Shown here: positions 1 through 47,690 of the stretch, piece after piece | Layout: every line of letters starts with the position of its first letter | Position numbering within the stretch: position 1 is the stretch's first letter | Source of the DNA: a virus | Virus record (IMG/VR): IMGVR_UViG_3300042484_001840 | Span: 1 to 64,000 of that record | Strand: one strand, 5' to 3' | DNA length: 64,000 bases | Notes under the pieces: model-generated | The model's database searches: none | The model's input: the letters and a program-made list of their open reading frames with translations, nothing else | What the model was told of the DNA's origin: nothing | Position numbers and translations under genes: made by a program

Positions 1-496
1 CTCCAGCGCCACCTCGTAAATATGTGGGTCCACCACTGGCAGTTATTGAAAAACCACGAACAGCCTGATGAGGTTGTTTATAGTAATTAGCGCCACCTAG
101 AGCACTCGTTGGTGGAGTTGTGGTTGCTACAACGCCGTTTCCACCAAGACTATGCGTAACAGATACCGTTGCTGCGCCACCCTGTTGGATTGTTCCTGCC
201 GTGGACCACCCCGTGCCATCAGCCCATCCAATACGCGATGCATTACCAAGGGTTAATAGGTTTTGAACAAATATACGATAACCGTTAGGTTGGATTCTTA
301 CACTGTCACCAACAGACATGTTGTAACAATAAATATCTCTAGTTAAAGAGTAGACACTAGAAGAAGGTGCAAGACCCAAGGCTGTTGAACTGCCGTCAAA
401 GACAACAGAACCGTCATCGCCAGTGCCATAAACAACATCTGGCGCGTCAAGGAATTGAGCCAATCCGTTTGAACCATATTTGACTACAGCGGGCAT
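1..496 (-). CDS. Partial tail fibre/appendage protein, Gly-rich
   Basis: The frame is open from an ATG at 496-494 to the left edge, so the C-terminus is missing. The start overlaps the stop of the upstream gene by one base, which indicates translational coupling. The visible 165 residues begin MPAVVKYGSNGLAQF and are rich in Gly, Ser and Thr with no long hydrophobic stretch. A segment reading ATVSVTHSLGGNG resembles the 'NHxLGG' segment in the C-terminal domain of the fibre gene at 5866-6351. The last visible residues are a Gly-rich run (ASGGPTYLRGGAGG). Gly-rich tips occur in some phage adhesins, but too little is visible to assign this. It is the last gene of the minus-strand tail operon seen here and is probably a receptor-binding or fibre component. 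Confidence 0.7.
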   Translation of the reverse strand, partial: MPAVVKYGSNGLAQFLDAPDVVYGTGDDGSVVFDGSSTALGLAPSSSVYSLTRDIYCYNMSVGDSVRIQPNGYRIFVQNLLTLGNASRIGWADGTGWSTAGTIQQGGAATVSVTHSLGGNGVVATTTPPTSALGGANYYKQPHQAVRGFSITASGGPTYLRGGAG

Positions 497-855
497 CAGG
501 TCTCCTCAATACCGACCACTGTCATATTAACAGATGTTGCAGAAGAACATAATGCCGTCAATTGGTCACTGTTTGTAGCGTTTGCTGTAGAACCGTTGTT
601 TGTCATAACCAAGGAACAGTTAAAGGAAATTGTCTCATTAGCCGCAATTGTCATGGCACTTAAAATATCGTGCGTAGCGGCTTCCGTGACATTTAATGGC
701 TTGAGGCGAACTGTCACCGTCTTTGCTGCTGCCGTGGTATTTGTCAAAATAATTTGCTTGACGACTGTCGTTGTACTGATGGGGACAGTGTAGTACACGG
801 CAGTTGAAGCCGTAAGTTGCGATGGTCCGACAAGTCTTTTCTGTGTTAAGGGCAT
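496..855 (-). CDS. Small beta-rich virion protein, probable fibre-associated
   Basis: This 119-residue protein is rich in Thr, Val, Ala and Asn with alternating hydrophobic residues typical of a beta sandwich. It has no signal peptide or membrane segment. Its ATG (855-853) overlaps the stop of the collagen-like fibre gene upstream, and its own stop overlaps the start of the next gene, so three fibre-region genes are read as one coupled unit. I do not recognise a family. Size, composition and position suggest a small structural subunit or tip protein of the tail fibre. It resembles in style, not in clear sequence identity, the 116-residue protein at 28205-28555. Confidence 0.7.
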   Translation of the reverse strand: MPLTQKRLVGPSQLTASTAVYYTVPISTTTVVKQIILTNTTAAAKTVTVRLKPLNVTEAATHDILSAMTIAANETISFNCSLVMTNNGSTANATNSDQLTALCSSATSVNMTVVGIEET

Positions 856-3800
856 TACATAACCTCCATTATAAATCTCATTTCAGCATCACGCACATTC
901 GTTGTCAAAGCAACAGTACCAGTAGCATTGGGTAAAGTAATTGTTCTATCGGCAGTTGGGTCAGTAACGCTTAGGGTTGTTTCGTAAGTATTCGCAGTTG
1001 CGCCTTCAAAAATAACTGAACCTGTTAAGGCAATATTGCCGTCAACATCTAGTTTTTCAGCAGGGTCGTATTTGCCAATACCCACACGATGGTTAGTAGC
1101 ATCAACTTTTAATGTTGTGGAACTTATCCCAGCCCCATCAACTCTTAGGTCTCCTTCTAATACAAGACCAGTTGAGGTGTCATATAAAAGGTTTGCACTG
1201 CCTGCGGGATTGTTTGAACTATCTTTGTAAACGACCTGATACGCATCACCAGCAACAGGACCTGTTGCACCTGAGGGTCCCTGCGCTCCAATTGCTCCCT
1301 GCGGACCCGTATCACCTTGAGGTCCAGTATTACCATTTGTGCCATTCATGCCAGGATAGCCCTCTGGACCTTGTGGTCCAGTTGCACCCGTTGGTCCTGC
1401 TGGGCCTTGCGCTCCCGTTGCTCCCTGAGGTCCAGTATCTCCCGTTGGACCAGCATCCCCCGTGGCACCTGTTGGTCCTACTGGACCCTGCGCTCCCGTT
1501 GCTCCCTGAGGTCCAGTATCTCCCGTAGCACCCGTAGGACCCGAAGGACCCTGCGCTCCCGTTGCCCCCTGAGGACCTTGCGCTCCAACATCGCCAGTAC
1601 GAGCAAAAGTAATAATGATGCTCTCACTATTACTAAACGCCGTAGCAGAACCTGAAACATACGAACAGTCAACATCAAAGAAGCCTGTTTCTTCCGTGAC
1701 AGCAGAAATGGTAAACAAAGCAAAATCTGATGAATCAGCCTTATTAGAAATACGGAAGTGACCCTTTATCGTACTTGTTGAGTCGTCAATAGTTCTTAGA
1801 TATGACTGAATGTCAGTTGCGTTGACATCAACATCGTCAATTTTTAGTTCTGAAGCAAGACTGATGTTTGCGTTGCTGAATTTAAGTTTTCCTGTACCAG
1901 GATCGGTATGTGCTGTATCGGTATCAAATACATATTCAAATGTGATTCCGCCAAAGTTGCCTTGGGCACCTTGTGGTCCTGTTGCGCCTTGGCTTCCTGT
2001 CGCGCCTTGAGCGCCCACATCACCTTGCGGACCCTGAGGACCCGTAGAACCTTGTGCGCCAGTGGCTCCTTGCGAGCCAGTTGCACCTTGGCTTCCAGTT
2101 GCGCCTTGCGGTCCGACATCACCTTGTGGACCAGTCGCGCCCTGAGCGCCTGTAGCACCTTGTGGTCCAGTCGCCCCCTGTGCGCCTTGAGGTCCAGCAT
2201 CACCTTGCGGTCCTGTCGCTCCCTGACTTCCAGTAGCACCCTGCGCTCCCGTAGCGCCCTGTGGACCTTGCACGCCCTGTGGACCCGTCGCCCCCTGAGC
2301 ACCAGTGGCTCCTTGCGAACCAGTCGCACCCTGAGGACCAGACTCCCCCTGAGGTCCTTGTGAGCCAGTTGCGCCCTGAGGTCCAGTTGAACCTTGCGCA
2401 CCTGTAGCCCCCTGAGCGCCAGTTGCACCCTGAGGTCCTTCAGGTCCCTGACTGCCAGTAGCGCCCTGTGCTCCAGTACTACCCTGAGGTCCTGTCGCTC
2501 CTTGGGCACCCTGACTACCCGTTGAACCCTGTGGTCCAGTACTGCCTTGCGGACCTTGGGCACCCTGTGCGCCCATTTCTGCAATAAGAGTCCAGAATGT
2601 TCCTTCTACGGGCGTATCGCCAGTGTTGCCCCCATTTGCATTAATGCGGTACCAAGTCTCGCCGTTATATGTGGCAACATCACCAATCGCATAAGAAGAT
2701 CCAATATTGTACGCACCAGTAAAATTCCATAAGGCGTTAGCCCCCTGTGGTCCCTGAGCGCCCTGCGGACCAGTACTGCCCTGTGGACCCGTACTTCCTT
2801 GAGGACCCTGCGAACCCGTAGCACCCTGACTACCAGTTACTCCTTGAGCGCCCGTACTACCCTGCGGACCAACATCACCTTGAGGACCAGTCGCACCCTG
2901 ACTACCCGTCGCACCTTGCGCTCCAGTTGCTCCCTGAGGACCTTGCGCTCCTTGAGCGCCTTGAGGACCGACAGCAGTGGTAGGAACAAACTTGGTGCCA
3001 TTAAAAACTAGGGCTTGAGCACTTGTTGCGCCAGTCGGGTCAATCTCAATACTGTCAACGGTCAAGGTACTTGAAGACAATGCTCCAGTAACTGTAAGTG
3101 ATGTTGCATTTCGTGAGCCGTCTGCAAGAAGGTACTGAGTATGGTCGTCGTCGCTAAGACCAGTGAGAGAACCGTGGTCAGATACTGGCTCTGTTGGTAC
3201 GCCACCACCAGAAACAATAGAGCGCACATCCGTTACAGCAACAAACGCTGCACTTGGCGTATTTTCAAATGAATTTTTACACTCATAAATAATTTTATAA
3301 AGAGGTCTAAATTCAACAATAGGGAACCCAGCCAAGTCTAGGTCACTATAAATAGCCGCTTCAGCAGCGCTCTTTTGACCATAACTATTTTGACCAAGAA
3401 TTGAAATTACTGGATAGTTAAGATTGTTAGTAGCAATGATGAATGACACACCAAAATAGTTGTTTTGAACATCAACGGTAGACCATGTACCAGCAGTATT
3501 TAAGTTATACCGAGGGCGAGATGTACCCTGCTTTAACGGGAATTGTGTTGGCGCATCATGTTTCCAATGCGCATTAGTGCGATAAAAAACAGGGATTTCA
3601 GCAATACCTTGAAGAACTTGTTCCCAAGTATTTGCTGTAGGTGTATTTGAATGTGTGATGTCAACTTGTAAATCTTCATCAAAGAAAGTTCCGTCAGCGA
3701 TATCTAGTTGAGCGTGAGAATCTAGCGAACCATTACCATCAAGAATATAGTTGTTCGCGCCAAATCCGTTGGCGATAGCCGCGCCACGAGTTCTGTGAAG

Positions 3801-4472
3801 ATACTCGTGTGTTTGCCAGTCAAGAACAATGCCGTGGCGTTCATCAGCAAAGAAGTATGCTTTGTTGTCTACTTCATTCCAGTAAATATATGCGGTAGGG
3901 GTGTCGTTTTCCCAATCAAAATATGATGTGCGATACGAAAGAACACCAGTATTGCTGTAATAAATATAGTAAAGACCACTCGTGTCAGGAATGTCAACAG
4001 TTTCCGTAGTTGTTTTCGTATATTTGACACCCTTGCACCAGACTTCAAATGATGCTGAAACTGGGGAGATTGAGAATCGTCGGTTGCCTTCATCAAAAGC
4101 AATAGTGCTTTGCGACTTATCAGTATGACCAATTGGTTCTCCACCAGGAAGATTGACTGGGGCAGTACCTGGAGCGAACTTAGTACCGTTATAAACAAGC
4201 GTGTTGCCTGTAGCCGCACCAGTTGTATCTACTTCAATACTGTCAACATAAAGCGTAGGAACTTTAAGGGTGTCGTCAGTCTTTAAAACATTGGCAGAGT
4301 CACGATAAATGTTGGTATCAACAGCATCAGTTCCATTACCCCACGAAATTTTTCCGCCAGCATCAATACTGAGGCGAGGATTAGCATCACCATTAACGCC
4401 AACATCTATGGCGGTGTCTGCTGCTGTACTAAAAAATCGTGCGCGGATAGCCGCGAAAAACTTGTTTGCCAT
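855..4472 (-). CDS. Collagen-like tail fibre protein
   Basis: This long fibre protein (1,205 residues) should trimerise through Gly-X-Y triplets. An N-terminal beta-rich region (about 1-500) contains two copies of a motif like VDSIEVDxTGA...NGTKF. Three collagen-like tracts follow (about 500-577, 633-835 and 962-1072) built mainly from [10 protein letters not shown] units. Between tracts 1 and 2 lies an insert with [17 protein letters not shown] and YNGETWYRI, typical of small chitin-binding-like carbohydrate modules. Between tracts 2 and 3 lies a roughly 125-residue beta domain often seen inside collagen-like phage proteins. The C-terminal 130 residues ([28 protein letters not shown]) resemble fibre tip segments that precede S74 chaperone domains, but no chaperone domain is present. 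A TGAGG stretch eight bases before the ATG is the likely ribosome site. Confidence 0.9.
1258..2975 (-). repeat. Collagen-like triplet repeat tracts
   Basis: Three runs of 9-base units encode Gly-X-Y, mostly Gly-Pro-Gln, Gly-Ala-Thr, Gly-Ala-Gln and Gly-Ser-Thr or -Gln. They are interrupted at about 2577-2743 and 1590-1965 by folded inserts. The low complexity gives long spurious open frames on both strands here; these were not annotated. Such tracts are prone to length variation by recombination. Confidence 0.9.
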
Positions 4473-4515
4473 TGAGCCTCAACTCAAAATAGGTGACCCC
4501 GCAAGGTCTATAATT

Positions 4516-5853
4516 TTAGCCTGTTACTACTACTCGGTAAGAAGAAGCACCAGGCGCGACACTGAAAGTAACTTGAACTCTGTTGACCGAGGACCGAACA
4601 ACATCTGTAAAAACAGTGTCGTACGAGGCTGAGTCAAAAACTTGAACTGTGACATCGCGCGTATTGAAGTTGTGGTCAATATCAAATGTTGTCGCAACGC
4701 CAGTTACTGTTTGCGAAGCAACACGAGCCAATGCTGGGGTGTTGGTTGTGCCTCCAGTGATGTCGCCAGCAAGGTTAGTTCGTGCGCCACCAGCAGTACC
4801 TGAGCCAGTACCACCATCTGCGACAGCAATATCAGTGCCGTTCCATGTACCAGTTGTGATGGTTCCAAGGGTTGTAATTGTTGCTTGACCAACATAGTTA
4901 GTTGAAATGTCAATTGCGTCAGACGAAACAGAAATACGGTTTTCTGTTCCGACGGCATCAATTTTGTTACCGTCTTTAGTTAAACCGTTTCCAGCAATAC
5001 TTTGACCAGCAGATGAGAACTGAACGAAAGTGAGGTTGGTCGTATTGAGGGTGATAGTGCCGTCTGTTGTAAGAACCCAACCCGAGTCAGACCATGCTGT
5101 TCCTTGCTCAATAAAAACAAACAAGCCCGGCGTAACTTCAGATGATGCGTTAGCGTCTGATGCTCGTGTTAAGACCCAAGGGTTTGAACCGTCACCAGCG
5201 TCAGTGACAGTGTAAATACCGTTATAGGGGGCATTGCTGGAAGTCTCATTTTTGACAAGGATACGAACACCCTCATCAACACCACGAGTCAATGTCGTTC
5301 CGTCAACAACTAGAGCGGCGTTTGCCGATGCTGTCAAAACATTAGATAAGAATGTGTATCCAGACAAAACAGCGTTAGTTGCCAATTTTGCTGATTGCTT
5401 GACATCTAGACCCGAGCGAGCAGCATCAACATATGCTTTGTTGGCTGCGTCAAGATCATTTTCTGGTGCCGTTACCTGTAGGCGACCATTAGCATCTCGC
5501 ACTGCCAAGGTTCCGTTTGTATTGGATGCTGTGGCATTATTTAATAGGGTGTAAAAAGCACTCGTTAAAAGACCAGCGTTGCTTCCGTCAGCAAGGTTGA
5601 GAGTGAGGGTGATTTCCCCCGCGTTGCTTTCGCCAACCGTCAGGGCGCTAGCGTAAGTTCCAGCGGATGTAACGCCATTGATAAGCGTTTCCCAAGCCGC
5701 ACCTGTGTAGTATTTTACAGCATCGTCGCCCGTATGGTAAAACATACGACCTTCAAATAGGTTGCTATCAGGATTAGCGCCAAGTTTTTCAAATGTACCA
5801 TTTAGAATCTGATTGCTATTCAGATCTAAATTTGTAAGAAATTTTGTTGCCAT
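4516..5853 (-). CDS. Tail fibre protein
   Basis: This 445-residue protein starts MATKFLTNLDLNSNQILN, a common opening of phage fibre proteins that attach to a baseplate. The next 60 residues include a 'GRMFYHTGDDAVKYYTGAAWE' type segment, a short beta motif widespread in fibre N-termini. The middle holds a domain with DAANKAYVDAARSGLDVK, also common in fibres. The C-terminal 60 residues (FDIDHNFNTRDVTVQVFD...VQVTFSVAPGASSYRVVV) match in pattern the C-terminus of the next gene (5866-6351), indicating a shared terminal beta domain. No catalytic motif was recognised. It lies between two other fibre genes in the same direction. Probable function is host recognition or fibre structure. Confidence 0.85.
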   Translation of the reverse strand: MATKFLTNLDLNSNQILNGTFEKLGANPDSNLFEGRMFYHTGDDAVKYYTGAAWETLINGVTSAGTYASALTVGESNAGEITLTLNLADGSNAGLLTSAFYTLLNNATASNTNGTLAVRDANGRLQVTAPENDLDAANKAYVDAARSGLDVKQSAKLATNAVLSGYTFLSNVLTASANAALVVDGTTLTRGVDEGVRILVKNETSSNAPYNGIYTVTDAGDGSNPWVLTRASDANASSEVTPGLFVFIEQGTAWSDSGWVLTTDGTITLNTTNLTFVQFSSAGQSIAGNGLTKDGNKIDAVGTENRISVSSDAIDISTNYVGQATITTLGTITTGTWNGTDIAVADGGTGSGTAGGARTNLAGDITGGTTNTPALARVASQTVTGVATTFDIDHNFNTRDVTVQVFDSASYDTVFTDVVRSSVNRVQVTFSVAPGASSYRVVVTG

Positions 5854-5865
5854 TGAATTTATCCT

Positions 5866-6351
5866 TTAGGTCAAATACGCATAGCCCGAAAAAGGCGCAG
5901 TAAAAGATACACGCACCTGAGATGTACTTATATATGATACTTCCCCAATAACCGTTGTAGATGCAGTATCAACCACAGTTACGCTTGGATACCCACCTAG
6001 GGTGTGATTAATGGTCCATGTGGAAGATGCTGATGCCTGAGTATGAACATGACGAGTTGTTGCACCGGGGATAAAAAATGGAGATGCAGGCCATCCTGAC
6101 GATGTTTTTGGTCCCCATAATGAACTATTTGTAGTATTTACATATATTTCACCAACTCTGCCAATGTTGGAGGTCGGGTTTGTGGTTCCAGTGACAATTC
6201 CAAGACCCTTTGACCCCGAAATGCCAACTAACGAAACAAGGACATTAGTAGTTTCCTCATTTACGGAAACAAGGTTGCGTAACTGGTCGGGGGCATTCTC
6301 AATATTTAGTTTTGTTACTTCTTGGACTACCGAGACATTGACATCGGTCAT
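5866..6351 (-). CDS. Short tail fibre/appendage protein
   Basis: This 161-residue protein has an N-terminal helix-prone part (NVSVVQEVTKLNIENAPD), a linker with VGEIYVNTTNSSLWGPK, and a C-terminal beta domain (TWTINHTLGGYPSVTVVD...VRVSFTAPFSGYAYLT). That last domain is a widespread terminal module of phage fibre and adhesin proteins. Its start overlaps the stop of the upstream gene (6348-6695) by four bases (ATGA), so the two are translationally coupled. Role: a short fibre or adaptor of the baseplate; the receptor is unknown. Confidence 0.8.
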   Translation of the reverse strand: MTDVNVSVVQEVTKLNIENAPDQLRNLVSVNEETTNVLVSLVGISGSKGLGIVTGTTNPTSNIGRVGEIYVNTTNSSLWGPKTSSGWPASPFFIPGATTRHVHTQASASSTWTINHTLGGYPSVTVVDTASTTVIGEVSYISTSQVRVSFTAPFSGYAYLT

Positions 6352-6695
6352 CTAGTGACCTCTAATTCAAGTTTTATTTTACCTTTTAAGATGCGAAACA
6401 CTCTACTTTGTGCGTCAACGATCTCAATGTCGTACACGCCATCCGAAGTCATCAGGGCAGTATCCGCGGCAAGGATAACTAAAGTAACTGTACCTTCATC
6501 GCCACCGAGTGTAATTCCACCATTTGCGGTGGTTAGTGATTTGACGATAGTAGAAGAGTCAATTTCTGTTCTAATTTGCATACGAGCGGTAAAGCCCGTC
6601 AAATCATATATTGAATCATCGGAATTAGTTATAGTTACAACACGCTCAAAATGAGCGCCCTGGTCAATTGTAAAGTTATAATTGCCAGCAAGCAC
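6348..6695 (-). CDS. Phage baseplate/fibre adaptor-like protein
   Basis: A GTG at 6695-6693 is preferred as start because a GGAGG lies six bases upstream; an in-frame ATG at 6713 lies before that ribosome site. The protein is then about 115 residues. The pattern DQGAHFERVVTITNSD...YDLTGFTARMQIRTE is a common N-terminal beta module of phage tail and upper-baseplate proteins. The end (VYDIEIVDAQSRVFRILKGK) fits the rest of that small fold. Its stop overlaps the start of the fibre gene at 5866-6351. Likely a small linker or adaptor between baseplate and fibres; assignment is by pattern only. Confidence 0.75.
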   Translation of the reverse strand: MLAGNYNFTIDQGAHFERVVTITNSDDSIYDLTGFTARMQIRTEIDSSTIVKSLTTANGGITLGGDEGTVTLVILAADTALMTSDGVYDIEIVDAQSRVFRILKGKIKLELEVTR

Positions 6696-6765
6696 ACTAA
6701 ACCTCCAAAACAATGGCTACAACTAATTCTAGCCCTAAATGTGACAGTTTTACAGCATATAAGCA

Positions 6766-6796
6766 AACGGAGCGGTCAGGAGGGTACCGCTCCGTT
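6766..6796 (-). terminator. Hairpin after the 88-residue gene, possible terminator
   Basis: A perfect 11-bp stem (ACGGAGCGGT and its complement, plus flanking A-T pairs) encloses a nine-base loop. It lies just downstream of the stop at 6818 and before the next minus-strand gene. On the minus strand it is followed by TTTGCTT, so the U-run is weak. It could act as a partial terminator or as a mRNA-stabilising element. Confidence 0.5.
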
Positions 6797-6817
6797 GCTC
6801 TCCTTGTCGGGAGGACC

Positions 6818-7084
6818 TTATTCTTCGTCGGTATCTTCGTCTAGGTCATCATTATCGCTATAAAAGAATGATGCATCTAATTCTCTAGTCATCATAATTT
6901 CTCTGGCACAATCAAGCATTCCCGTACCAAGCCAAGTAGTCATCCCATCGGATGTCCCAAGGTGAAGGTCGCGAGAATCATTATCAAGTACTTCGGCAAT
7001 AATGATCCAGTTTGTGATCATTTGCTCTGGGAACGCCTCGGATATTAGACCCTGTAGATCTTTATCATCGTAAGGATTTCCCAT
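6818..7084 (-). CDS. Small acidic protein of unknown function
   Basis: This 88-residue protein ends in a strongly acidic tail (DNDDLDEDTDEE). The body (SEAFPEQMITNWIIIAEVLD, TSDGMTTWLGTGMLDCAREI) has alternating hydrophobic residues and looks globular and soluble. I do not recognise a family with certainty. It stands between the large tail protein at 7130-9937 and the fibre cluster, bounded by a 45-bp gap upstream and a hairpin downstream, so it may be expressed separately. Acidic small proteins at this position could be chaperones for fibre assembly or host-directed factors; neither can be shown. Confidence 0.65.
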   Translation of the reverse strand: MGNPYDDKDLQGLISEAFPEQMITNWIIIAEVLDNDSRDLHLGTSDGMTTWLGTGMLDCAREIMMTRELDASFFYSDNDDLDEDTDEE

Positions 7085-7129
7085 TTATATATTTTAGCAG
7101 TCAAATGAGACTAAAGAATTAAACTAAAA

Positions 7130-9937
7130 TCATGCCTGTACAATGAAAATCTTTCCACCACTAGGTCCAGTATCCCCAACGGTGTATGACCGATAAGCCA
7201 AAAATGAGCGTACAGGGCGTACAAAAGCATTTGTTGTTTTTGTTTGACCATTTAGACTACCAGTATCTATTCTTTGCGTCCATGCCAAGGATGAACTGTT
7301 GAGGTACTCAGTTGAAGTCCAGTATGCGCCAGTCTGAAGGTCACCAATAGCCTCCCTCTGAATACGCAATTGAGCAAATTCATCCTTTGATGGCAAAAAC
7401 CAGTCAGAATAACCGCCATAAACTAAATCTGCACAATACGCAGAGGCGTTAGTTGACGCAACACCACCAGTATCAGCAATGATATCTATTGTATTTTGCG
7501 CTCCAGTACCAATAGCAACGCCATCAGCGGCAGTCAGTCCCCCAGTATTCGCAACAATAAATGCCTCATCTAATGAGCCATCACTATTTAGGCGAGCAAT
7601 AAAGTCAGTTATGGTAGTGCCAATTGTTACAAAAGTACCACCAATAATAATTTTTCCACTAGACTGAATTTCCACACCTTGGACACCCGCACTAGGAGTG
7701 CCATTGCCAATGAATGATGTGTCCAATGAGCCATTGCTATTCAGACGAACAAGATTGTTTGCTGTCGTGTCATTGAATGCAGTAAAATTTCCACCTACAA
7801 CTATTTTACCGTCAGACTGAATTCCCATATCATAAACACCAAGAGTTGCAGTAAATCCAGTACCAGCATTTGTAGTAAATGCGGTATCTAATGAGCCATC
7901 GCTATTCAGTCTTGCAATTCTATTTACGGTAGTCCCATTGAATGAAGTTATACCGCCACCTACTAATATTTTACCATCAGACTGAATTTGTATTACAAAA
8001 ACAGTGTTAATAAATCCAGTACCAGCAGCGGCAACGAAATCGGTGTCTAATGAACCACCACTATTTAGACGAGTTAAATACCTTGTAGTAGTTCCATCAA
8101 ATGTAGTAAAATATCCACCTACAACTATTTTACCGTCAGACTGAATTTTAATTGCTGAAACAATGTAATTAAATCCAGCACCAGTAGCAGTATCAAAATC
8201 AGTATCTAATGAACCATTACTATTTAGGCGAGTTAAATAATTTACGGTAGTTCCGTTGAATGTAGTAAATTGACCACCTACAACTATTTTGCCGTCAGAC
8301 TGAATTTCAATTGCTTCAACAACGCCATTAAATCCAGTACCAGTGTTAGTTGTAAAAGTTGTATCTAAAGTGCCATCAGAATTTAAGCGAACAATACGAC
8401 CTACGGTAGTTCCATTGAATGTCGTGAAAGAACCACCTACAAGTATTTTTCCGTCAGACTGAATTGCTATATAACTAACGGAGTGACTAAATCCAGTACC
8501 AGTAGTAAACGAGTTATCTAATGAGCCATCGCTATTCAGGCGAATTAAACAATTTACAATTATATTATTGAATGAAGTAAAACCACCACCAACAAGTATT
8601 CTTCCGTCAGACTGCGTTTTAGTTATATAAACGACCAGATTGGCACCCGCCTCAACCACACCAGAAGATGGTGCCCAAAGTCTAGTTACTTCTTGAGAGG
8701 CTGGCGCAACTTCAAAACATGTTATTGGAGTAAAAAATTCCTTACAGATGTGTTGAATCGTAAAACCCATTGGGCGTGATTTTTCTACAGCATTAATCAC
8801 TGTCTCGGAGTCTTCTAAGACAACCCCACCTGGAGTTTCCGATGTATATGTTTCAAGGGTAATAGTCCACGGGTTGACAATTGGATCTACTATATAATTT
8901 ACGGTTTTCGTGCCAGTAAGAACAGTTTGAGCAGATTCAATGATTGCAGTCTTTGTTCCAGCGTTGTGACCTATTCTTGCTGTCGTAATCTGATCTCGTC
9001 GCCCTTGGACAAAGTTGTTGTCAGAAGTATCGTATGACTCAATTTCATCCCAATCCGCCGTAGCGTTACCGTCAGCAGGATCGTCTATTAATGATACAAA
9101 AGAAGCCCATGTAGTTGGCAAGTTACCCCACGGAGTAGAGCCACCAGCAGATTGACTGAGTTTTGTGCCAACAATCTGGGCAAGCCAAGGAAGGAATTCC
9201 TTGTTCGCTACTTGTGGTTCAACTAAAGAACTTTTTGTTGAGTTGTCCGTTGCGTCATATCCGCCATCAATATCCAAATAGGGGAATGAGTCAAGTTCGT
9301 CAACTGCCTTACCTGCATAAGCCAAACCAACATCCATGAGCCTTAGCATGGGGAAATTGGGCGCTGTTTGCTCCGAGTCTTTTTCTATAAAAAATACTGG
9401 CATCCGTTCCATGCACATACGCAAAAAGAGGTTATTTCTAATTGCATAGGTGTTAGTCAAAACTGGGTGGGCTAAATAAATTGCTGAGTTATTGTGATTT
9501 ACAATTTGGATTGTTGTGGTGAAACCAGTATTTCCCTCAGTTGGGGGGACTACGATCTCTGGTCCACGAACAATTCCCCATGTGAGGGCGTTTAATACTG
9601 TTGTGACTGAACTGCTATCGCCATACGAAGAAGTGACAGTTACGGTTGCGGTTACTTTAGACTCACAATAGATGCGACCATAAAATGTAATGAAGTCATT
9701 CTTGTACGAAGATGGTAATTGAATCTGTTCGTGTTGTAATGTTACTTGACTAGAGGACGATGGGGTCACCTTTAGCGTATGGTATTGATTTTTAAATCTA
9801 AATGAAAAATCAACACTTGATGTTCCATTTGTGGTTTGCCAAGTTCCAGTAGATGTATTGAAATAAAAATCTTCTGGATCAAGTAAATTTCTACAACTAC
9901 CACTTAGGCTTTCCGCAGCATCAGAACTAGTAGCCAT
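7130..9937 (-). CDS. Tail protein I-like baseplate protein fused to delta-60 propeller and DUF1566-like domain
   Basis: This 935-residue multidomain tail protein has four parts. Residues 1-155 look like a beta jelly roll (DPEDFYFNTSTGTW, VTATVTVTSSYGD). Residues about 160-420 include EFLPWLAQIVGT and a later FVQGRRDQITTARIG, typical of P2 gpI-like tail proteins that join baseplate J to fibres. Residues about 431-798 hold seven repeats of about 53 residues with IQSDGKIxVGGxF...IxRLNSDGSLDxxF, the delta-60 repeat. Residues about 816-930 contain DWFLPSKDEF, YWTSTEYLNSSS and FVRPVRSF, the pattern of DUF1566/Lcl-type domains. The gene directly follows baseplate J (two-base gap), as gpI usually does. 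The fusion of gpI with a propeller and a lectin-like end suggests that baseplate connection and receptor binding are in one polypeptide. Confidence 0.85.
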   Translation of the reverse strand: MATSSDAAESLSGSCRNLLDPEDFYFNTSTGTWQTTNGTSSVDFSFRFKNQYHTLKVTPSSSSQVTLQHEQIQLPSSYKNDFITFYGRIYCESKVTATVTVTSSYGDSSSVTTVLNALTWGIVRGPEIVVPPTEGNTGFTTTIQIVNHNNSAIYLAHPVLTNTYAIRNNLFLRMCMERMPVFFIEKDSEQTAPNFPMLRLMDVGLAYAGKAVDELDSFPYLDIDGGYDATDNSTKSSLVEPQVANKEFLPWLAQIVGTKLSQSAGGSTPWGNLPTTWASFVSLIDDPADGNATADWDEIESYDTSDNNFVQGRRDQITTARIGHNAGTKTAIIESAQTVLTGTKTVNYIVDPIVNPWTITLETYTSETPGGVVLEDSETVINAVEKSRPMGFTIQHICKEFFTPITCFEVAPASQEVTRLWAPSSGVVEAGANLVVYITKTQSDGRILVGGGFTSFNNIIVNCLIRLNSDGSLDNSFTTGTGFSHSVSYIAIQSDGKILVGGSFTTFNGTTVGRIVRLNSDGTLDTTFTTNTGTGFNGVVEAIEIQSDGKIVVGGQFTTFNGTTVNYLTRLNSNGSLDTDFDTATGAGFNYIVSAIKIQSDGKIVVGGYFTTFDGTTTRYLTRLNSGGSLDTDFVAAAGTGFINTVFVIQIQSDGKILVGGGITSFNGTTVNRIARLNSDGSLDTAFTTNAGTGFTATLGVYDMGIQSDGKIVVGGNFTAFNDTTANNLVRLNSNGSLDTSFIGNGTPSAGVQGVEIQSSGKIIIGGTFVTIGTTITDFIARLNSDGSLDEAFIVANTGGLTAADGVAIGTGAQNTIDIIADTGGVASTNASAYCADLVYGGYSDWFLPSKDEFAQLRIQREAIGDLQTGAYWTSTEYLNSSSLAWTQRIDTGSLNGQTKTTNAFVRPVRSFLAYRSYTVGDTGPSGGKIFIVQA
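7545..8645 (-). repeat. Seven delta-60-type repeats inside the tail protein
   Basis: Seven consecutive units of roughly 159-165 bases encode the IQSDGKI-VGG...RLNSDGSLD pattern. DNA identity between units is high around the CAGTCTGACGG-like core, suggesting recent duplication or gene conversion. Exactly seven units would close a seven-bladed beta propeller. Confidence 0.85.
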
Positions 9938-9938
9938 A

Positions 9939-11453
9939 TTAAATGCTTTCTGTGGTTACGGAAGAGACGGGGAGCGTGCCTTTGAAGTTGAAAACAACAT
10001 TGCCAGAAACATCTACTGATGCAAGTTCACTACTATTTGCATTGACACTCATTGTGAATGAGTCAACATAGTCAACGCCAGAAATTTGAGAAACATCGGC
10101 AATCATCTGATTTTTACGAATTTGTGTTGTAAAAGGATATTCAGATGGAGATAAATAATTAGTTAAATATGAATCTATTTCTGTTCTAACATCAAGTGAT
10201 GAATAGCCTTCAATGACGGCAACTGAAACCGTAACTGAAATGTAAGCAAGAATAACATCGGTAATAGACACATCAAGACCACCAATGCATCTTGAAGCGA
10301 TATCGTCAGCAATTACGCCCTTTTGTTCTGCCGTTAGACTAGCGCCAGTTGAATCTGATAAGAAAATTGTAATAGCGCCAGTCTGTTCAGCAGCATCAAA
10401 TCGTACTGTGTCCAAGATCTCCACCTGAGGTGACTGCCCACCTACGGTGGTTAGAACGGTAGTTGCCGCTCCAGTATAAGAATATTCAGCAACTACGCTT
10501 CCACTAGCAACTACACTTGCATTAGTGCCTGAGATGCCCCAAATGGTTTCATAATCATTAATCCCAGTATTTGTAACTCGGACCGTTGAGGCTGCGCTCA
10601 TAATGGGAAATGAGGCTGTTGGTAAGGTATAAAAACTTTCGCCAGTTGAAGTATATTTAATGGCATCATAGCCAGTTCCAGTATTGGCGAAGACTGCCCG
10701 TACTACGCCTGCCGAGTACCTACCAAGTGAATCTGCCTCTAATTTAACCAAACGAGTCAAGTCATATGTTTCTACACGGTAGGTGTCAGAGTAATTCGTC
10801 AAAATATAGTCTGTTGTCTGCGATGCCGTAGCCAATGAACGACTAAGACTTCCGAGGTATGTCCGTGTACGGCTAAAGAATTCAGCGTCTGTTTCCGTTG
10901 CCTCACCTTGAACTAAGGTTCCATCAAATTGTGCGTCAATTAATTTGACAATTGGACTCAAAATTGTCAAAACTGTTCCATCAGCAATAACTGGTTTTGC
11001 GCCAGAAGTAATTGCCTTTACCTGCGTTGAAGCCGACTCCGTATCCCCGCTGGCAATAGTTACTGATGCCGTGGTCTCAAAGATATGAAGGACCACTTGG
11101 TCGTCAGTAGTCTCGTAGTATCCAACTTGAGTTCCAGCAGGAATCGTCAAGCCAGAATCATCAATTGCCGAAAAGATAACAGCACCAGAAGCAAATGTTG
11201 ACTCAAGGCGATACATGCCCATGACGCGGAGCATTCCCTCAATGAGGCTATTTGGAAGCCTATTGATCGCCCCCGTGACGAGACCTGAGACATACGCCAT
11301 TGCCTGAAGCATGGCATCTTCCACGGTTCCTGTTCGTGGGTCAAACTCGGGGAGCGCGATAAGGGCGTATTCACGGGCAAGCGAATAAATATCTGATGGC
11401 TGTAAATCATTAACCGTAAGGTCAATGTATTCACTAAAATCTGGTGATGCCAT
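9939..11453 (-). CDS. Baseplate J-like protein
   Basis: This 504-residue baseplate wedge component belongs to the gpJ/gp6-like family of contractile-tail phages. Family features seen are an N-terminal helical part (IYSLAREYALIALPEFDPRTGTVEDAMLQAMA), a beta region with SGLTIPAGTQVGY (the 'IPAGT' motif typical of gpJ), an ETDAEFFSRTRTYLGSLSRSLATASQ stretch, and a C-terminal part with YSSLDVRTEIDSYLTNYLSP and SGVDYVDSF. Its start overlaps the stop of the gp25-like gene by one base, and the tail protein I-like gene follows after two bases. The order gp25-J-I is the classic myovirus baseplate order. Confidence 0.93.
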   Translation of the reverse strand: MASPDFSEYIDLTVNDLQPSDIYSLAREYALIALPEFDPRTGTVEDAMLQAMAYVSGLVTGAINRLPNSLIEGMLRVMGMYRLESTFASGAVIFSAIDDSGLTIPAGTQVGYYETTDDQVVLHIFETTASVTIASGDTESASTQVKAITSGAKPVIADGTVLTILSPIVKLIDAQFDGTLVQGEATETDAEFFSRTRTYLGSLSRSLATASQTTDYILTNYSDTYRVETYDLTRLVKLEADSLGRYSAGVVRAVFANTGTGYDAIKYTSTGESFYTLPTASFPIMSAASTVRVTNTGINDYETIWGISGTNASVVASGSVVAEYSYTGAATTVLTTVGGQSPQVEILDTVRFDAAEQTGAITIFLSDSTGASLTAEQKGVIADDIASRCIGGLDVSITDVILAYISVTVSVAVIEGYSSLDVRTEIDSYLTNYLSPSEYPFTTQIRKNQMIADVSQISGVDYVDSFTMSVNANSSELASVDVSGNVVFNFKGTLPVSSVTTESI

Positions 11454-19619: not shown

Positions 19620-21080
19620 TCAGTTTACTGATGCTGTGAGATTTGACTTAGTGACATCAACTTGAATCTGGTCACCAATGCTAGAAATACGAACTCCGAC
19701 TTTAGCCTTAACCAAGCCACCAGCCAATTGAGAAAGCGGGTTGATTGCGTCATTGACGACAACCGTGTATCCGTAGTCAATGCGACGACCAGTTGCATCA
19801 AATGCTTCGTACAAGCCACCAGCAATGCGGATTGGCTCTAACATTGAAATGAGGCGACCCTTAACGCGGGTAAATAGCGCCGAACGACCATCAATTGGCG
19901 AGAACACCAAGTCTTCCAAAACTGCCTCACATTTAGCAACAACGAAGTTGAGCATTTCACGAGCGTTCAAGAAACGATAGTTGTCCTCATCGGATGAAAG
20001 CGAACGAGCACCATACACGCGAACGCGACCATTGATGATTCGCAAAGTATTAACTCGCGACTCGTCAAGGGTGTTACTGACGGTCTTGGTGACCGTATCA
20101 TTAAGACCAGTCAACCAGCGTGATTCCGTAACAACACCAGCGTACGCTGCCCATGAACCAGTGCGGTTATGAGCAATTGAACGCTTAGCGGCTACGAATC
20201 CTTCTGGCGAAATGACGATTGCAGTTCCGTCTTCCTTAGTCGCCTTAACCCAAGGCCAAAACAATCCGCCGTATTCTGAATAGTCTTCAGAACCAAGAGT
20301 TTCAGCGTGATCGGCGGCCTGAGTTGCGGTGTAGTCTGACGGCGTTGACAAAACGGCAATACGGTGATTCTCGTAGCAGTGGTCAAGAATTTCAGTATGA
20401 ACTGTTGTGATATTTCCGCTAGTCACCAAACCTGGCATTGAAACAGCACCAGGACCAAAGTCGTAGCCAAAATCATCCAAAGCAGTGAACCATGTTGCAT
20501 CAATAACACCATTACGGTTGTCGTCTCCAGCAGAGAAAGCCGTTGCACTAGTGATATTGTCAAAAGTACCCGTACCGATAGTTGCCGTAATGTACTTAGA
20601 TGCTACGGCAGAGCCAGTAATCTTATTTACAAGGGCAGTAGCGGTAGCAACTTCTCCCGAATTATACACAAGGTCGCCCGAAAGATACAACTTGAGAGTC
20701 TTACCAGAACCAAGCGCAGTAAGCGTTGTGGTCAGGTTTGACGACCAGTCTCCTTGACCAACCGCGGTCAGCGTAAGGGCGGTACCAGAGGCGGTATTAG
20801 GGACTTGCAAAACGCCAGCGGTGGCTGATGCTCCAACGACACGCGAAACATAAACTTGTGCTCCGCCTTCTTCAAAGAAAGTCTGCACCTGTTGGTGAAC
20901 TTCTCCATATGAAACATAATCACCGAAGACTGATTCATAATCAGAAATACTGGTCACTAGTTTCGCTTCGTTAGAAGGACCACGCTCCGTGAATCCGACA
21001 ACAAACCACGAGGCAGTTTGCGACTGGTTGATTGTGCTCGGTCCTGTTCGGACTGATGTGTTGACTACGATTCCGGGCAT
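19620..21080 (-). CDS. Contractile tail sheath protein
   Basis: This is the tail sheath subunit, about 486 residues from the ATG at 21080-21078. That start is chosen because GGAGGAAGG lies directly upstream of it; an ATG seven codons earlier (21101) lies before this ribosome site. The N-terminus (MPGIVVNTSVRTGPST) and the following ASWFVVGFTERGPSNEAKLVTSISDYESVFGDY are typical of sheath proteins. The C-terminal half contains ITTVHTEILDHCYENHRIAVLSTP-type and VNTLRIINGRVRVYGARSLS patterns, and a final RRIDYGYTVVVNDAINPLSQLAGGLV segment that forms the interlocking arm. It lies first in the sheath-tube-tape series, preceded by a 142-bp non-coding stretch that may contain its promoter. Confidence 0.93.
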   Translation of the reverse strand: MPGIVVNTSVRTGPSTINQSQTASWFVVGFTERGPSNEAKLVTSISDYESVFGDYVSYGEVHQQVQTFFEEGGAQVYVSRVVGASATAGVLQVPNTASGTALTLTAVGQGDWSSNLTTTLTALGSGKTLKLYLSGDLVYNSGEVATATALVNKITGSAVASKYITATIGTGTFDNITSATAFSAGDDNRNGVIDATWFTALDDFGYDFGPGAVSMPGLVTSGNITTVHTEILDHCYENHRIAVLSTPSDYTATQAADHAETLGSEDYSEYGGLFWPWVKATKEDGTAIVISPEGFVAAKRSIAHNRTGSWAAYAGVVTESRWLTGLNDTVTKTVSNTLDESRVNTLRIINGRVRVYGARSLSSDEDNYRFLNAREMLNFVVAKCEAVLEDLVFSPIDGRSALFTRVKGRLISMLEPIRIAGGLYEAFDATGRRIDYGYTVVVNDAINPLSQLAGGLVKAKVGVRISSIGDQIQVDVTKSNLTASVN

Positions 21081-21130
21081 CGTGCCTTCCTCCGCTCCCA
21101 TAACTTGGGACTAAGTTCATGACTTTATGA

Positions 21131-39281: not shown

Positions 39282-41219
39282 TTGGAAGATAGTGACCGCA
39301 GGGAAAACCATCCTGACTGGGTTCAGGCACGGGTTAAATCATTTATTCAGGATACAAAAGTCGGCACTGTTCGTTCTGGTTCTGGCGTAGGGCAAGCACT
39401 ACAAGGCGCAGTTTCATATGTAACTCCTGGTGATGTTAGTGGTGTAACTAGCCCTGTTCGCTCTCGTCTTTACTCCGCCATTACTCCTGGTGGTCGTGGC
39501 TTGCGCCCTCGTGTCAATAGACCAAATGAGCGCGGATATCGTTGCCCTGAGGGATATCAGTTTGGTGGTCGCTTTACTGACTCCAAGTGGTCCACATGTG
39601 GACGACAGTTATTTGATATCCCATCACTATCACGAACTTTGCTTCAAATTGCCGATAACGCTATTCGTGTAGGGCGTGGTATTGGTTATCAAAATCCTGA
39701 CACAAACCCTCTTGGTGGTGCCGAAGTTACTGGCGGTTCATTGATTCAGAGCCGTATGGCAAATATTCCTCGTGTTAGTGCTTTTGACAAAAAGAAGCGT
39801 GATGATGGCTTAAAGGCGGCAATTGACGAGTTAGTCAATCCATTGGCTCCAGCGTCAATGATGATTCGGCGCGATGGTTTCCCAATGCAACCAGTCGTTT
39901 CTGCTGGAGAATTACGGAAAGTTCCAGACAATCGCAATATGGAAGGCGCAGTCTTTCTATTGTCTGCATCCAATATTGATTCTTTTGGTGGCGATGAATT
40001 GGGTTTATTGTCAAATACTGGCGTGAGCACTTTGATTTATGTTCTACCTAATGGTTCTACTGTTCGTATGGACAAAACCCGTGCGTTAACCGTAGGCGAA
40101 CGGCGCAAGTTGGGCAAGACTGTCAGTTCGGCATCCAAGATTGACAATAGTAATGATCCATTGGCTCGTCTAAAAATGGTCATTTCAGACTCTGGTGGCG
40201 GAATTTCTATCAACAAAGATTTTTCTAAAATTCGCAATGCTGAAGAAGTTGTTGATTCAGGCAAATTTAAAGGAAAGCCTCGCTGGGTTGCTGAAGCGTT
40301 TCGCAATAGTGGCAAAAAGCGTACTGTTTCTCCCCAGTCAATTGTTGATGATTCCAAGTTGGATTCCGAAACAGAAACTCAAGCAAGTAAAAATATTAAT
40401 GATATTGAAACTGCTATTGAACATATAAACAACGGTGGAAATCTTTCTGATATTAATCCCGCTATTTTGCCTCAGGCTATTCGTCGTGCAAAAGTTTATC
40501 GTCAAAAGAATATTGGATCTGGTCGTATTCTTTTTGAGCGTGCTGACGGCGGTGTTTCTTTTATAGAGGTTTCCAATGGAAAGCGCCTTGAGCATCTTGG
40601 TGCCCATTTTTCTGCCGCTATCGCTGAACATCTTGAATTACCTACTCCTAAAGTCCGCATCATGGGCGAAGGAGACAATCGCCCGTACCTCGTTCAAAAC
40701 ATTGATACTGTCGTGCCAAATGGCAAATTACAATCTATGAAGTTGACAGATATGCCCGCAAAAGACCTTGCTGGTATTTTTGTTTCTGATTACTTGACAG
40801 ATGTTCGCAAACGAAATCCTTCTACTGTTTCGGCTGTTTCTGCTGATGGTAAAGTTCGCGCAATTGCAACGATGAATACCCCCTCGTCGTTGGCTGGTTT
40901 ATCTGCTGAAGAAATGATCAAGCGTCGCTCCATTGTTATTGGCGATTGGGTAAAAGCAGATGGGAATAACATGATTAATGCCATCAAAAACCGCAATGAA
41001 GAAGTTCGTCGTCAAATTCTGGCTGTTTATGAAGATTTAATTCAACGAGCACGCGCTTTTAAATGGGATAGATACATTAAGCAACTACGGTTAGACGGTA
41101 AACTTTCTAGTGCAGAACAAAAGCATATGGATATTGTTAAATCTCTATATGACCAAAGACTAGACAATTTAGCCAAGTCTAAGGAATCTTTTGCTAATAT
41201 TTTGGAGTTAGGCAAATGA
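39282..41219 (+). CDS. Kinase-fold-like protein lacking catalytic residues, with CPxGxQFGG module
   Basis: This 645-residue protein is read from a TTG at 39282. Residues 88-106 hold CPEGYQFGGRFTD followed by a second Cys (C106), the module shared with the two large proteins downstream. A middle beta-rich region is unassigned. Residues about 375-560 align in pattern with the kinase-like domains downstream: lead-in helix IETAIEHINNGGNLSDINP, then FERADGGVSFIEVSNGKRLE, IAEHLELPTPKVRIMGEG, YLVQNIDTVVPN and IFVSDYLTDVRKRNPSTV. Here the DRHxxN motif is replaced by K510-R511-N512-PST and no IDxG follows, so it looks like a pseudokinase. Its stop overlaps the next start (ATGA). Confidence 0.7.
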   Translation: MEDSDRRENHPDWVQARVKSFIQDTKVGTVRSGSGVGQALQGAVSYVTPGDVSGVTSPVRSRLYSAITPGGRGLRPRVNRPNERGYRCPEGYQFGGRFTDSKWSTCGRQLFDIPSLSRTLLQIADNAIRVGRGIGYQNPDTNPLGGAEVTGGSLIQSRMANIPRVSAFDKKKRDDGLKAAIDELVNPLAPASMMIRRDGFPMQPVVSAGELRKVPDNRNMEGAVFLLSASNIDSFGGDELGLLSNTGVSTLIYVLPNGSTVRMDKTRALTVGERRKLGKTVSSASKIDNSNDPLARLKMVISDSGGGISINKDFSKIRNAEEVVDSGKFKGKPRWVAEAFRNSGKKRTVSPQSIVDDSKLDSETETQASKNINDIETAIEHINNGGNLSDINPAILPQAIRRAKVYRQKNIGSGRILFERADGGVSFIEVSNGKRLEHLGAHFSAAIAEHLELPTPKVRIMGEGDNRPYLVQNIDTVVPNGKLQSMKLTDMPAKDLAGIFVSDYLTDVRKRNPSTVSAVSADGKVRAIATMNTPSSLAGLSAEEMIKRRSIVIGDWVKADGNNMINAIKNRNEEVRRQILAVYEDLIQRARAFKWDRYIKQLRLDGKLSSAEQKHMDIVKSLYDQRLDNLAKSKESFANILELGK

Positions 41220-44200
41220 GTAAAATAGTTCTTATTAAAGACGCAATCAAGGATGAGCCATACGCTCTTGTGTCTTACGACTTCATGGAAGTTAAGGCAT
41301 TTGCGTTAACGGACGATGCCGAAGAGTGGTCTGAGTGGGCTAATCAGTCATGTAAAACAATTGACGAGATTCGTGAAAGTCTTACCTATTCACTTCAGAC
41401 AGAACTTCCACGACCAGCAACTGAAATTGAATTAGATGGAATTAAGCAATTCACCACATCTGAGCGTTTTATTCAAATTAAGTCTGCAATTAGTGAATCA
41501 AAACTTGAAATGGTTGGCACATTCAGTCGTCAGAGTCGTCGCTTTGCCGTAAAGACATTGAAAGATTCGGAACTTCCAGAAAGTCCATCTTCATTGCCTT
41601 TGACTTCTTTTAGTGCTCAAAGTCGGCAGGCAATCATTGAGTATAAGGCCTTGTCTTACAGGGCTGACAATAAGTTCTCGGCTACAGCCTTTGAAGCAAA
41701 GGGTGCGCGAGCATTATGGGACCCCTCCCTTGGACCATCTGGCGGATGGCGATGCCCTACTGGTTCTCAGTTCGGTGGATACATCACTGACCGCTTTGGT
41801 CGTGGATGCGGTGGAGGGGTTCTCCGTCGTGTTGGGCGAGCATTAGTTGATGCAGGTCGTGGAATTGACAAATTGGGCGAGGCACGAGGCGCTCGTCGTC
41901 TTGGTCGTGCCGCTGACAAACTCAATAATAAGCCTGGTGGCGGACGCGCTCAGCGTGCCGTTGGTAATGCGGCTAATGCCCTTGAGCGTGGCGCACAGCG
42001 TTTGGTGGGAGACTTTAAGCCTGGTGATGGGCGTGCTCGTCGTCGTGGTATTTCAGCACCAGATATTGCTCCTGAGCGTAAAAAGGAAATTGATGACCGC
42101 TTGATGGCTATTCAGGCAGAACTTGATGATCTGGTTGATCAGCCTCCGACTGGCGATATTGAGAAGCGTATTACAGAACTTACCAATGAAAATAAGAAGT
42201 TGCGTCGCGAGCGAGATGGAGCAATGCCAAAGCGCATTTCTGCCGTTAAGCCTGCTCCATCAAAGCGTCGTGTTGTTAAGCCTGAGGCTGGACGCAACGA
42301 GCGAGTTCAAGGTGCACGCCCTGTAAAGAAGCCAGTTACGCAAGGTCGTCGTCAGGGCGTTCTAGATCGTGCCGCTCAACGACTCGTTGGAGAATATGAC
42401 CCATCAGAGTATAAGCCTGGTGACAAAAAGCGTATCAAAGATCGCGAAAATCGCTACGCAAAAGTTTCTGATGAAGCATTGATTAATGCGCTAAAGATGA
42501 ACTCGCCCAAGGCTGTTAAGCCGGGTCAGAATCGTGACATTGAGGCAAACAAGCGTCAAGAGCGACTTGAAGTTCTTCAGGAAATGCTCAATCGTGGCAT
42601 TGATGTCCCAGAACAATTCAAGAAGGAAGTCAAGCAGTATCGCTTAAAGCCCCAGCGTAAGAAGCGTGGCGCTAAGGCTGGTAGTCGTCGTAGTCGTGCC
42701 GCCAACGCCCTAGAGCGAGCCGCTCAGCGAGTTCTTGCAGGGGACAAGAATAAGAAGCGTCGTGACCGTAGTCGTCGCAAGCGTGCCGCCGATGCTCTTG
42801 AGCGTGGTGCAAAACGGATTCTTGATGGTAAGAAAAAGCCTAAAAAACAAGATAATCGCAAAAAGCCACAACCAAACGGTGGTCTTAACCTACCTGGCGG
42901 TGGTCGTGGGATTATTGAACCGCGAGATACTGAAGGTCTACCAAAACCAGGTATGGGGGGCATGCGAAAGCCTGGTGAAGGTCAACTCAGTCTTGAAGAA
43001 CTTCAAGATTTAATAGATAGTAATGCAGGAATTACTGGTCTTTCTGAATTACGCAAACAGTTTAAAGATTATGACGATGCCCAGATTGACGATTTTTTAA
43101 GTCGTTTTGTTAAAGCACGCGAAAAAATAGATAATGATGATCCAGAAAGATTAAAACTTGACAAGTGGATCATCAATCTTGAAATGGAAAAAACCGCTCG
43201 TGAACTTGATCGCCTAAAGAAGGGCAAGAAAGAACGAGATAATCAGCGTGCCCGTGCTCGTCGTGCCGTTACCGCTCAAAGCGCATTTACCCCCATTCGT
43301 CGTCCACGCCCAAAGAAAATGAAGGGCGACAAGATTGCTTGGGACGATATGGATGCCCAGCAAAAAGCACGCATGCGTAATCGTGCTATTGCCGAACTTG
43401 ATGATCTTGATGCAAGTTGGCGCAAGCGTCTTGGTTTAAAGAGCAATGAACCACTCACTGACAAGATGATTCGTGACTACATTAAAGAACGAGAGAACAA
43501 CAAGCCTGGTGCTTACATTGGCGTTCTTAAGGCTAACGCTAACGACTGGGGCGTTCTTAAGGATTACGCAAATGACCTTGAGAATGGGGATATTCTAAAT
43601 AATCTTGGTCCGAAGCGTCGCAAGACACTTGTTGACGACTTGAATAATGCTTCTGCACCTAAGCGTGTTAAGACACCAAGTTCACCCCGACCCAAGTCTG
43701 CCCCAAGTGCAAAAAAGCGTGATGGTCTAAACGATAATGAAAAGAACCGTCTCAAAGAACTTGACGGACCTGAGTTTGACAACCAAGTAGAAGCATTTGA
43801 CGAAGCAGAGCGTCTGGCTAAAGCAAATAATGAATCTATGGTTGCGTTTGAACAAGATGGAAAATTCCGTGTTGTCAAGGCTCAAGACTTTAACGATCTA
43901 CTAGATGGCATTGATGATGACAGTCGTATGCAAAATGCGATTGGTAGTGTTCGCCATTTTGATGCTAATGGTAACGAAAGCAAAATTGATGTTTCCGAGT
44001 CTGCTCGCGTTAAGCAATCAATTAAAGAATCACTTGGCATTGATGCTCCAGAATCGCTTGGTGGCTCAATACCCGATGATCGGTCACGACGAAATGTGCG
44101 TAATCGGTTCCCGAATAATGGACTCCCCGATAAGGCATTCTGGCGAGACAAGGACTGGAAGCCTCGTACTGGTGGAGATGATGCAGAAAAGCATGAGCGT

Positions 44201-47342: not shown

Positions 47343-47690
47343 ATGGAACAAGATATTGAAAGAACAGAAAAATCTTTAAAGGATTTAAAGAAAGAAATCA
47401 CATATCCTGCTGTTATTTATGTTGAGACAGAACAGGGAAATATTGCTCCAATTTTAGTTCTTGAACGAAAAGGTAGAATTACTTCTTATTTTTGGGGCGA
47501 TGTTAAACGCTATGATTCAAATGAGTATAATGTTGTTGGTGATACTGTAAGACTATCTATAGGTTCGCAGTCGTCAGCAAAACTATTTTTTATTGATAAT
47601 GCCACTCCTGTGGACATTGACAGACTTATAGATCAGGCTAAGAAAAATAAGATAGTCAAACCAGAACCTAAAGGCAAAACATCAAAATGA
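47343..47690 (+). CDS. Small protein between the kinase-like genes
   Basis: This 115-residue protein is read from the ATG at 47343, preceded by TGGAGG eight bases upstream inside the end of the giant gene; the stop of that gene ends two bases before. It has a helical charged N-terminus (IERTEKSLKDLKKEI), a beta-rich centre (PAVIYVETEQGNIAPILVLERKGRITSYFWGDVKRYD) and a Lys-rich tail. It overlaps the next gene by four bases (ATGA). No family recognised. It may be a partner or inhibitor of the adjacent kinase-like proteins, from position only. Confidence 0.68.
   Translation: MEQDIERTEKSLKDLKKEITYPAVIYVETEQGNIAPILVLERKGRITSYFWGDVKRYDSNEYNVVGDTVRLSIGSQSSAKLFFIDNATPVDIDRLIDQAKKNKIVKPEPKGKTSK

Follow-up and report, generated by a model that had tools for sequence, protein, structure and literature searches.

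In phage P2, the baseplate protein gpI (176 aa) is encoded within the gene order J-I-H-G and precedes a separate fibre gene (H) and an assembly gene (G). Other phage baseplates carry propellers that are established or suspected receptor binders: phi11 Gp45 (five blades) and PhiKZ gp131C (seven blades) each place a propeller at the baseplate periphery, as the proven or presumed receptor-binding part (PMC4901313). The DUF5122 repeat has earlier been modelled on a propeller template (PMC8078820). The DUF1566-containing C-terminal domain of the Legionella protein Lcl resembles C-type lectins and binds glycosaminoglycans (PMC11162425), and DUF1566 is the commonest named target domain of diversity-generating retroelements (PMC6642488). 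Domain shuffling in tail proteins is known as well (PMC10684548). Hence, gpI, delta-60 propellers and DUF1566 tail domains are all already known; what is new, within the sets that we searched, is their nested fusion in gpI, which we describe here.

The fusion gene lies in a 64,000-nucleotide window (the whole stretch of DNA that was analyzed, positions 1 to 64,000 of IMG/VR virus record IMGVR_UViG_3300042484_001840). The complete record, a virus contig of 145,042 bp, carries 11.3 kb at its start (window positions 1-11341) that are 99.6% identical to the 11.3 kb at its end (G000:C1:133702-145042); given these redundant ends, the genome has a length of ~133.7 kb. Because the two ends differ at 42 sites, strains are mixed in the record. 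Forty-one of these 42 differences are located in the first 655 bases, mostly in the final part of the gene for a Gly-rich tip protein (L103:7482-8198), suggesting that two strain alleles of this tip protein were brought together in one assembly, whereas the gpI-type gene shows zero differences between its two copies. The tail sheath gene (19620-21101), upstream in the same gene cluster, is closest to those of Gordonia myophages (37-40%), followed by Brevibacterium and Arthrobacter phages. At a G+C content of 43%, actinobacteria of freshwater may reasonably be guessed as the host. A tryptophan-halogenase-like gene (L103:2757-4232, equivalent to G000:C1:128756-130231; PF04820, E=4e-99) is found near the tail genes. 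Two very large proteins (41216-47341, 2041 aa, and 47687-51937, 1416 aa), with sub-cutoff PI3/4-kinase-like matches only, are encoded between the portal/protease genes and the capsid gene.

The gpI-type gene occupies positions 7130-9937 on the minus strand, where it is one open frame of 935 aa; the plus-strand reading of the same positions is full of stops. From the N-terminus, the chain consists of a jelly roll, a gpI core, the start of a DUF1566 domain, a propeller, the rest of the DUF1566 domain and a moved first strand. The gene start at position 9937 directly follows a baseplate J-like gene (9939-11453, minus strand; PHROG 2103), the product of which resembles annotated baseplate J proteins of Gordonia and Arthrobacter phages. 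The gpI core (residues 163-400, positions 8738-9451, minus strand; LPWLAQ... AGTKTAIIESAQTVL... SRPMG) is kept in 418-aa relatives and was matched by no Pfam or NCBIfam model, whether single sequences or 12 family members were used. Comparison of the core profile with nine annotated P2-type gpI proteins using hhalign gave an E-value of 1.3e-5 and a probability of 81% over 112 columns, in which LPWLAQ is aligned to LPWLAW and AGTKTAIIE to KGTIGAIRR. Because of this profile match, and because the J-I order is that of P2, we accept, on sequence grounds, the original prediction that the 935-aa protein belongs to the gpI (phage tail protein I) family. The size of about 200 residues that had been taken as normal for gpI is not a suitable baseline for this phage group, in which gpI has ~410-420 aa including a CBM-like N-terminal domain. 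AlphaFold confidence is low for the gpI core, with pLDDT <50 in many parts. Residues 17-162 (9452-9889, minus strand) are modeled mostly at pLDDT 76-95 as a CBM-like jelly roll (beta sandwich) that matches CBM16, CBM61 and CBM22 with TM(target) up to 0.74, in a Foldseek search of the gpI part that was dominated by jelly-roll matches. Since this N-terminal region is common to aligned relatives that are 65% identical, the jelly roll stands outside the new module and would be ancestral.

Seven delta-60/DUF5122 repeats were detected at residues 438-798 (7544-8626, minus strand), exactly the number that had been predicted, with 7 stretches each for DUF5122 in Pfam (PF17164, E=2e-97, 319.5 bits against a curated cut-off of 27) and for TIGR02608 delta_60_rpt in NCBIfam (E=1.9e-68). 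The blades start at residues 442, 493, 546, 599, 652, 707 and 758, with a spacing of 51-55, and correspond to positions 8507-8614, 8354-8461, 8195-8302, 8036-8143, 7877-7984, 7712-7819 and 7559-7666 on the minus strand. AlphaFold modeled the repeats at pLDDT ~90, and Foldseek matched the model to WD40-type and other propellers of the PDB, with TM on target up to 0.69 and an rmsd of 6-9 Å, as well as to a delta-60 protein of an uncultured phage. Structure prediction thus bears out the propeller fold anticipated for these repeats. With an rmsd of 6-9 Å to the best PDB matches, the model does not by itself establish perfect closure; a closed seven-bladed ring is nevertheless likely in this copy. 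Repeat numbers in relatives are compatible with a closed propeller. We searched the best 80 of 340 viral and the best 80 of 529 cellular delta-60 loci and found that 31 of the 45 complete non-identical viral ORFs inspected contain 7 (14 ORFs), 14 (16 ORFs) or 21 (1 ORF) repeats, and that 41 of the 65 complete cellular ORFs inspected, mostly from Bacteroidota, contain 7 or 14. By chance, one count in seven is expected to be a multiple of seven, and the binomial values are tiny, but the sequences are related and thus not independent. Most off-rule counts are 6, 8 or 13, which a single missed or split blade might explain. This clustering of sequence-derived counts at 7 and 14 supports closed seven-bladed units.

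Identity between blades is 42-71% at the amino acid level and 53-80% at the DNA level. Adjacent blades have 18-31 identical residues in each 36-residue blade, and just 8-23 of these are encoded by the same codon, a proportion that does not support recent blade duplication or ongoing homogenisation. The suggestion that DNA similarity between repeats reflects ongoing change is likewise not supported, with a top DNA identity of 80% and a gene that is identical in both redundant ends of the record. Among the best matches listed, identity over the propeller to delta-60 proteins of phages and Bacteroidota is ~46-60%, with the nearest propellers at 57% (phage) and 54% (Bacteroidota). Because phage and Bacteroidota propellers are about equally distant, no propeller donor can be named.

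The predicted DUF1566-like domain is present (Lcl_C/DUF1566, PF07603, E=7e-12, 46.1 bits against a cut-off of 34.9), the Pfam match covering residues 827-910 and profile positions 23-117 only. Propeller and DUF1566 had been read as consecutive domains; our results indicate that they are nested. An HMM built solely from DUF1566 domains of other phages matched the protein in three pieces, all on the minus strand: model positions 28-57 at residues 408-435 (8633-8716, FEVAPASQEVTRLW; 8.3 bits, c-Evalue 1e-4), model positions 51-166 at residues 801-914 (7196-7537; 121 bits) and model positions 1-16 at residues 918-933 (7139-7186, YTVGDTGPSGGKIFIV; 13.2 bits). The main part also resembles PDB 8q4e (E=6e-6). 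Alignment using MAFFT with 14 DUF1566 domains, carried out without propellers, set the FEVAP stretch before the propeller and the core after it, with 45-53% identity; joint alignments of many propellers and DUF1566 rows (A5, A7, A11, A12 and A14) misplaced the DUF1566 rows and were left out of use, and the folding was based on A13. Given the three ordered HMM pieces and the MAFFT placement on either side of the propeller, the propeller sits, as far as the primary sequence tells, inside the DUF1566 domain, and the first conserved strand is shifted to the C-terminal end. The usual order of GDTGPxGGKIF strand, FEVAP strand and core is here replaced by FEVAP, propeller, core and GDTGP strand. AlphaFold pLDDT is <50 at residues 422-433 and 796-829, at the junctions and DUF1566 halves, so that joint folding of the split pieces into one domain is presumed.

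A second DUF1566 protein of the same genome, of a Gly-rich tail type (G000:C1:131616-133478, equivalent to L103:5617-7479), has a domain that begins with KYFEVAP and ends with YAIGDTGPAGGKIFITP, which is the same permutation without a propeller. Sought as an empty site, this second permuted protein has no homologue in the record of L195, one of the relatives described below. Nearly all other viral DUF1566 ORFs inspected retain the usual strand order, and of the 66 frames with DUF1566 in the inspected loci we noticed reordering in just one other, L173. There, two DUF1566 domain-lengths (L173:3718-5145) are arranged as second half, full domain and first half, an array lacking both outer ends. 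Because truncated tandem arrays such as this one exist, the permutation may have arisen through tandem duplication of DUF1566 followed by loss of both outer pieces. A diversity-generating retroelement was rejected as an explanation of the DUF1566 domain, since the 145-kb record contains no RVT_1 match to a reverse transcriptase, the controls being positive.

The nearest relatives found (L193, L194 and L195), in which baseplate J is 75-78% identical, provide the opportunity to see what the module stands in for. Their gpI has 418 aa, contains neither propeller nor DUF1566 and stops shortly past SRPMGYTYVH. Next come a fibre-like ORF of 190 aa and then a small Phage_tail_APC chaperone ORF (E=5e-15). 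Between L193 (3585-4157) and L194 (2653-3225), the fibre-like ORF differs strongly in its C-terminal half while its neighbours are near-identical, a pattern as expected for a receptor-binding tip if judged by sequence variation. Protein homology of our gpI to these relatives ceases near residue 396. At the DNA level, homology between the window and L195 spans window positions 11499 to 8831 (73%), picks up again at 7121 (90%), 8 bases beyond the stop codon, and continues towards lower positions. Neither DUF5122/delta-60 nor DUF1566 was found in the 129-kb record of L195. Reciprocally, the relatives' fibre ORF found no match in the genome of the window, and the chaperone search yielded no more than a sub-cutoff fragment containing a stop. 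Because both flanks are homologous to L195 and the gene content between them is different, this comparison indicates that the gpI tip, the fibre-like ORF and the tail-assembly-chaperone ORF are exchanged for the DUF1566/propeller module (exchanged block, 7122-8749, no strand given). The exchange probably ran in the direction of the module displacing a separate fibre/chaperone pair. Other gpI relatives contain ordinary DUF1566 domains, inserted between the jelly roll and the gpI core (L155), in the loop after LPWLAQ (L109), or before RPMG in addition to two N-terminal ones (L005, L115), and L129 has two inserts. L004 likewise carries ordinary DUF1566, so that one to three inserts are seen at varied points across L005, L004, L115, L129, L109 and L155. 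Further gpI relatives (L183, L189 and L190) have other inserts. In view of DUF1566 and other inserts at such varied points, gpI of this phage group looks like a frequent acceptor of modules.

Our preferred interpretation, which we consider fairly probable, is that the gene encodes a gpI with an integrated adhesin tip, in which a permuted DUF1566 domain and its nested seven-bladed propeller have replaced fibre and chaperone and would bind the host. The phage would be contractile-tailed and a relative of actinobacterial myophages, and this gpI would be a protein of its baseplate wedge, where the core anchors the chain beside baseplate J. The C-terminal tip would be a circularly permuted C-type-lectin-like DUF1566 domain with the propeller between its early strands and its core, and the lectin-like domain would hold the propeller outward at the baseplate rim. 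The module would have taken over, in one stretch, the place of the relatives' fibre gene and assembly chaperone. On each baseplate, identical heads, which we take by analogy to number about six, would contact a glycan or glycoprotein on the host surface, and no fibre encoded at this locus would be attached. The strongest argument for this putative receptor binding is that the module sits where relatives encode fibre and chaperone, which makes the built-in receptor-binding module of the original prediction plausible; its exposure on the baseplate is presumed. The same tip could instead serve as a structural or docking platform for another phage protein without any host contact. Propellers are often protein-protein scaffolds, and the genome has kept other candidate adhesins downstream, namely a collagen-like 1205-aa fibre (855-4472) and Gly-rich tip proteins, either of which might dock there. 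The Lcl paper also allows DUF1566 a role in trimerisation (PMC11162425). This explanation seems unlikely given that the module sits at the locus of a separate fibre and its chaperone, and that DUF1566 domains of relatives are found at many unrelated points of gpI and of other tail proteins, as befits an exposed module rather than a conserved docking site.

We find it improbable that DUF1566 is a broken remnant, its fold destroyed by the propeller or left over from a truncated tandem pair, with the propeller working alone. The first strand is indeed absent N-terminally, where "KEFFTP", ahead of FEVAP, perhaps duplicates part of the moved strand, model confidence is low at the junctions, and truncated tandem arrays occur in another phage (L173). 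Yet conserved residues (YGGYSDWFLPSKDE, VRPVRSF) persist in the core, which has an HMM score of 121 bits. The C-terminal end carries the moved strand intact, and in the second protein the same permutation is present as a clean insert. Moreover, the termini of propellers and of lectin folds can plausibly both lie close together. Finally, the assembly could have fused gpI of one phage in silico with the propeller/DUF1566 gene of a second phage. Such an assembly chimaera would be compatible with a single metagenomic record for which no second contig with the junction was found, and in which ends differing at 42 sites reveal mixed strains. It is hard to reconcile with an uninterrupted 2.8-kb frame across the junction, with homology resuming 8 bases after the stop codon, with a second, identically permuted DUF1566 protein in the same record and with a gpI gene identical in both redundant ends, and we consider it highly improbable.

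No other case of a propeller inside DUF1566 or fused to gpI was found among the best 80 of 340 viral and the best 80 of 529 cellular delta-60 loci, the best 80 of 110 viral DUF1566 loci and 50,697 annotated phages, the last of which yielded no fusion relative and weak propeller matches only. The fusion was found in one genome, from a metagenomic assembly. Near relatives with a separate fibre and chaperone and the phage with the module fused to a baseplate protein constitute a natural before-and-after pair, which allows domain-level testing of tail-fibre loss and gain. The permuted split lectin-like domain is an uncommon case of a domain held within a domain, and closed delta-60 propellers in phages gain sequence-wide support from the seven-repeat rule. 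More speculatively, gpI of this group might be a general acceptor of adhesin modules, the permuted DUF1566 domain being a socket for a whole propeller with the termini of both folds close together, through which a detachable fibre with its chaperone could become an adhesin within the wedge.

Compared with described systems, the protein resembles P2 gpI (Tail_P2_I) in its position after baseplate J and in a profile match over LPWLAW, KGT..AVR and the C-terminal region, and the J-I-fibre-chaperone order of its relatives matches the J-I-H-G order of P2. Unlike P2 gpI, it carries a jelly roll at the N-terminus, and an adhesin-like module of 530 residues at its C-terminus takes the place of fibre and chaperone. 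Whereas phi11 Gp45 and PhiKZ gp131C are separate proteins attached to the baseplate, the propeller described here belongs to the gpI chain itself and lies within a lectin-like domain. It shares its repeat type and multiples-of-seven counts with delta-60/DUF5122 proteins of phages and Bacteroidota, but in the other delta-60 proteins inspected the repeats stand alone or beside other regions, none of them with DUF1566 in one frame. Likewise, the DUF1566 domains of Legionella Lcl and of diversity-generating retroelement targets have the conserved core and the RPVR ending in common with the domain found here, which in contrast to them is circularly permuted and split by a propeller.
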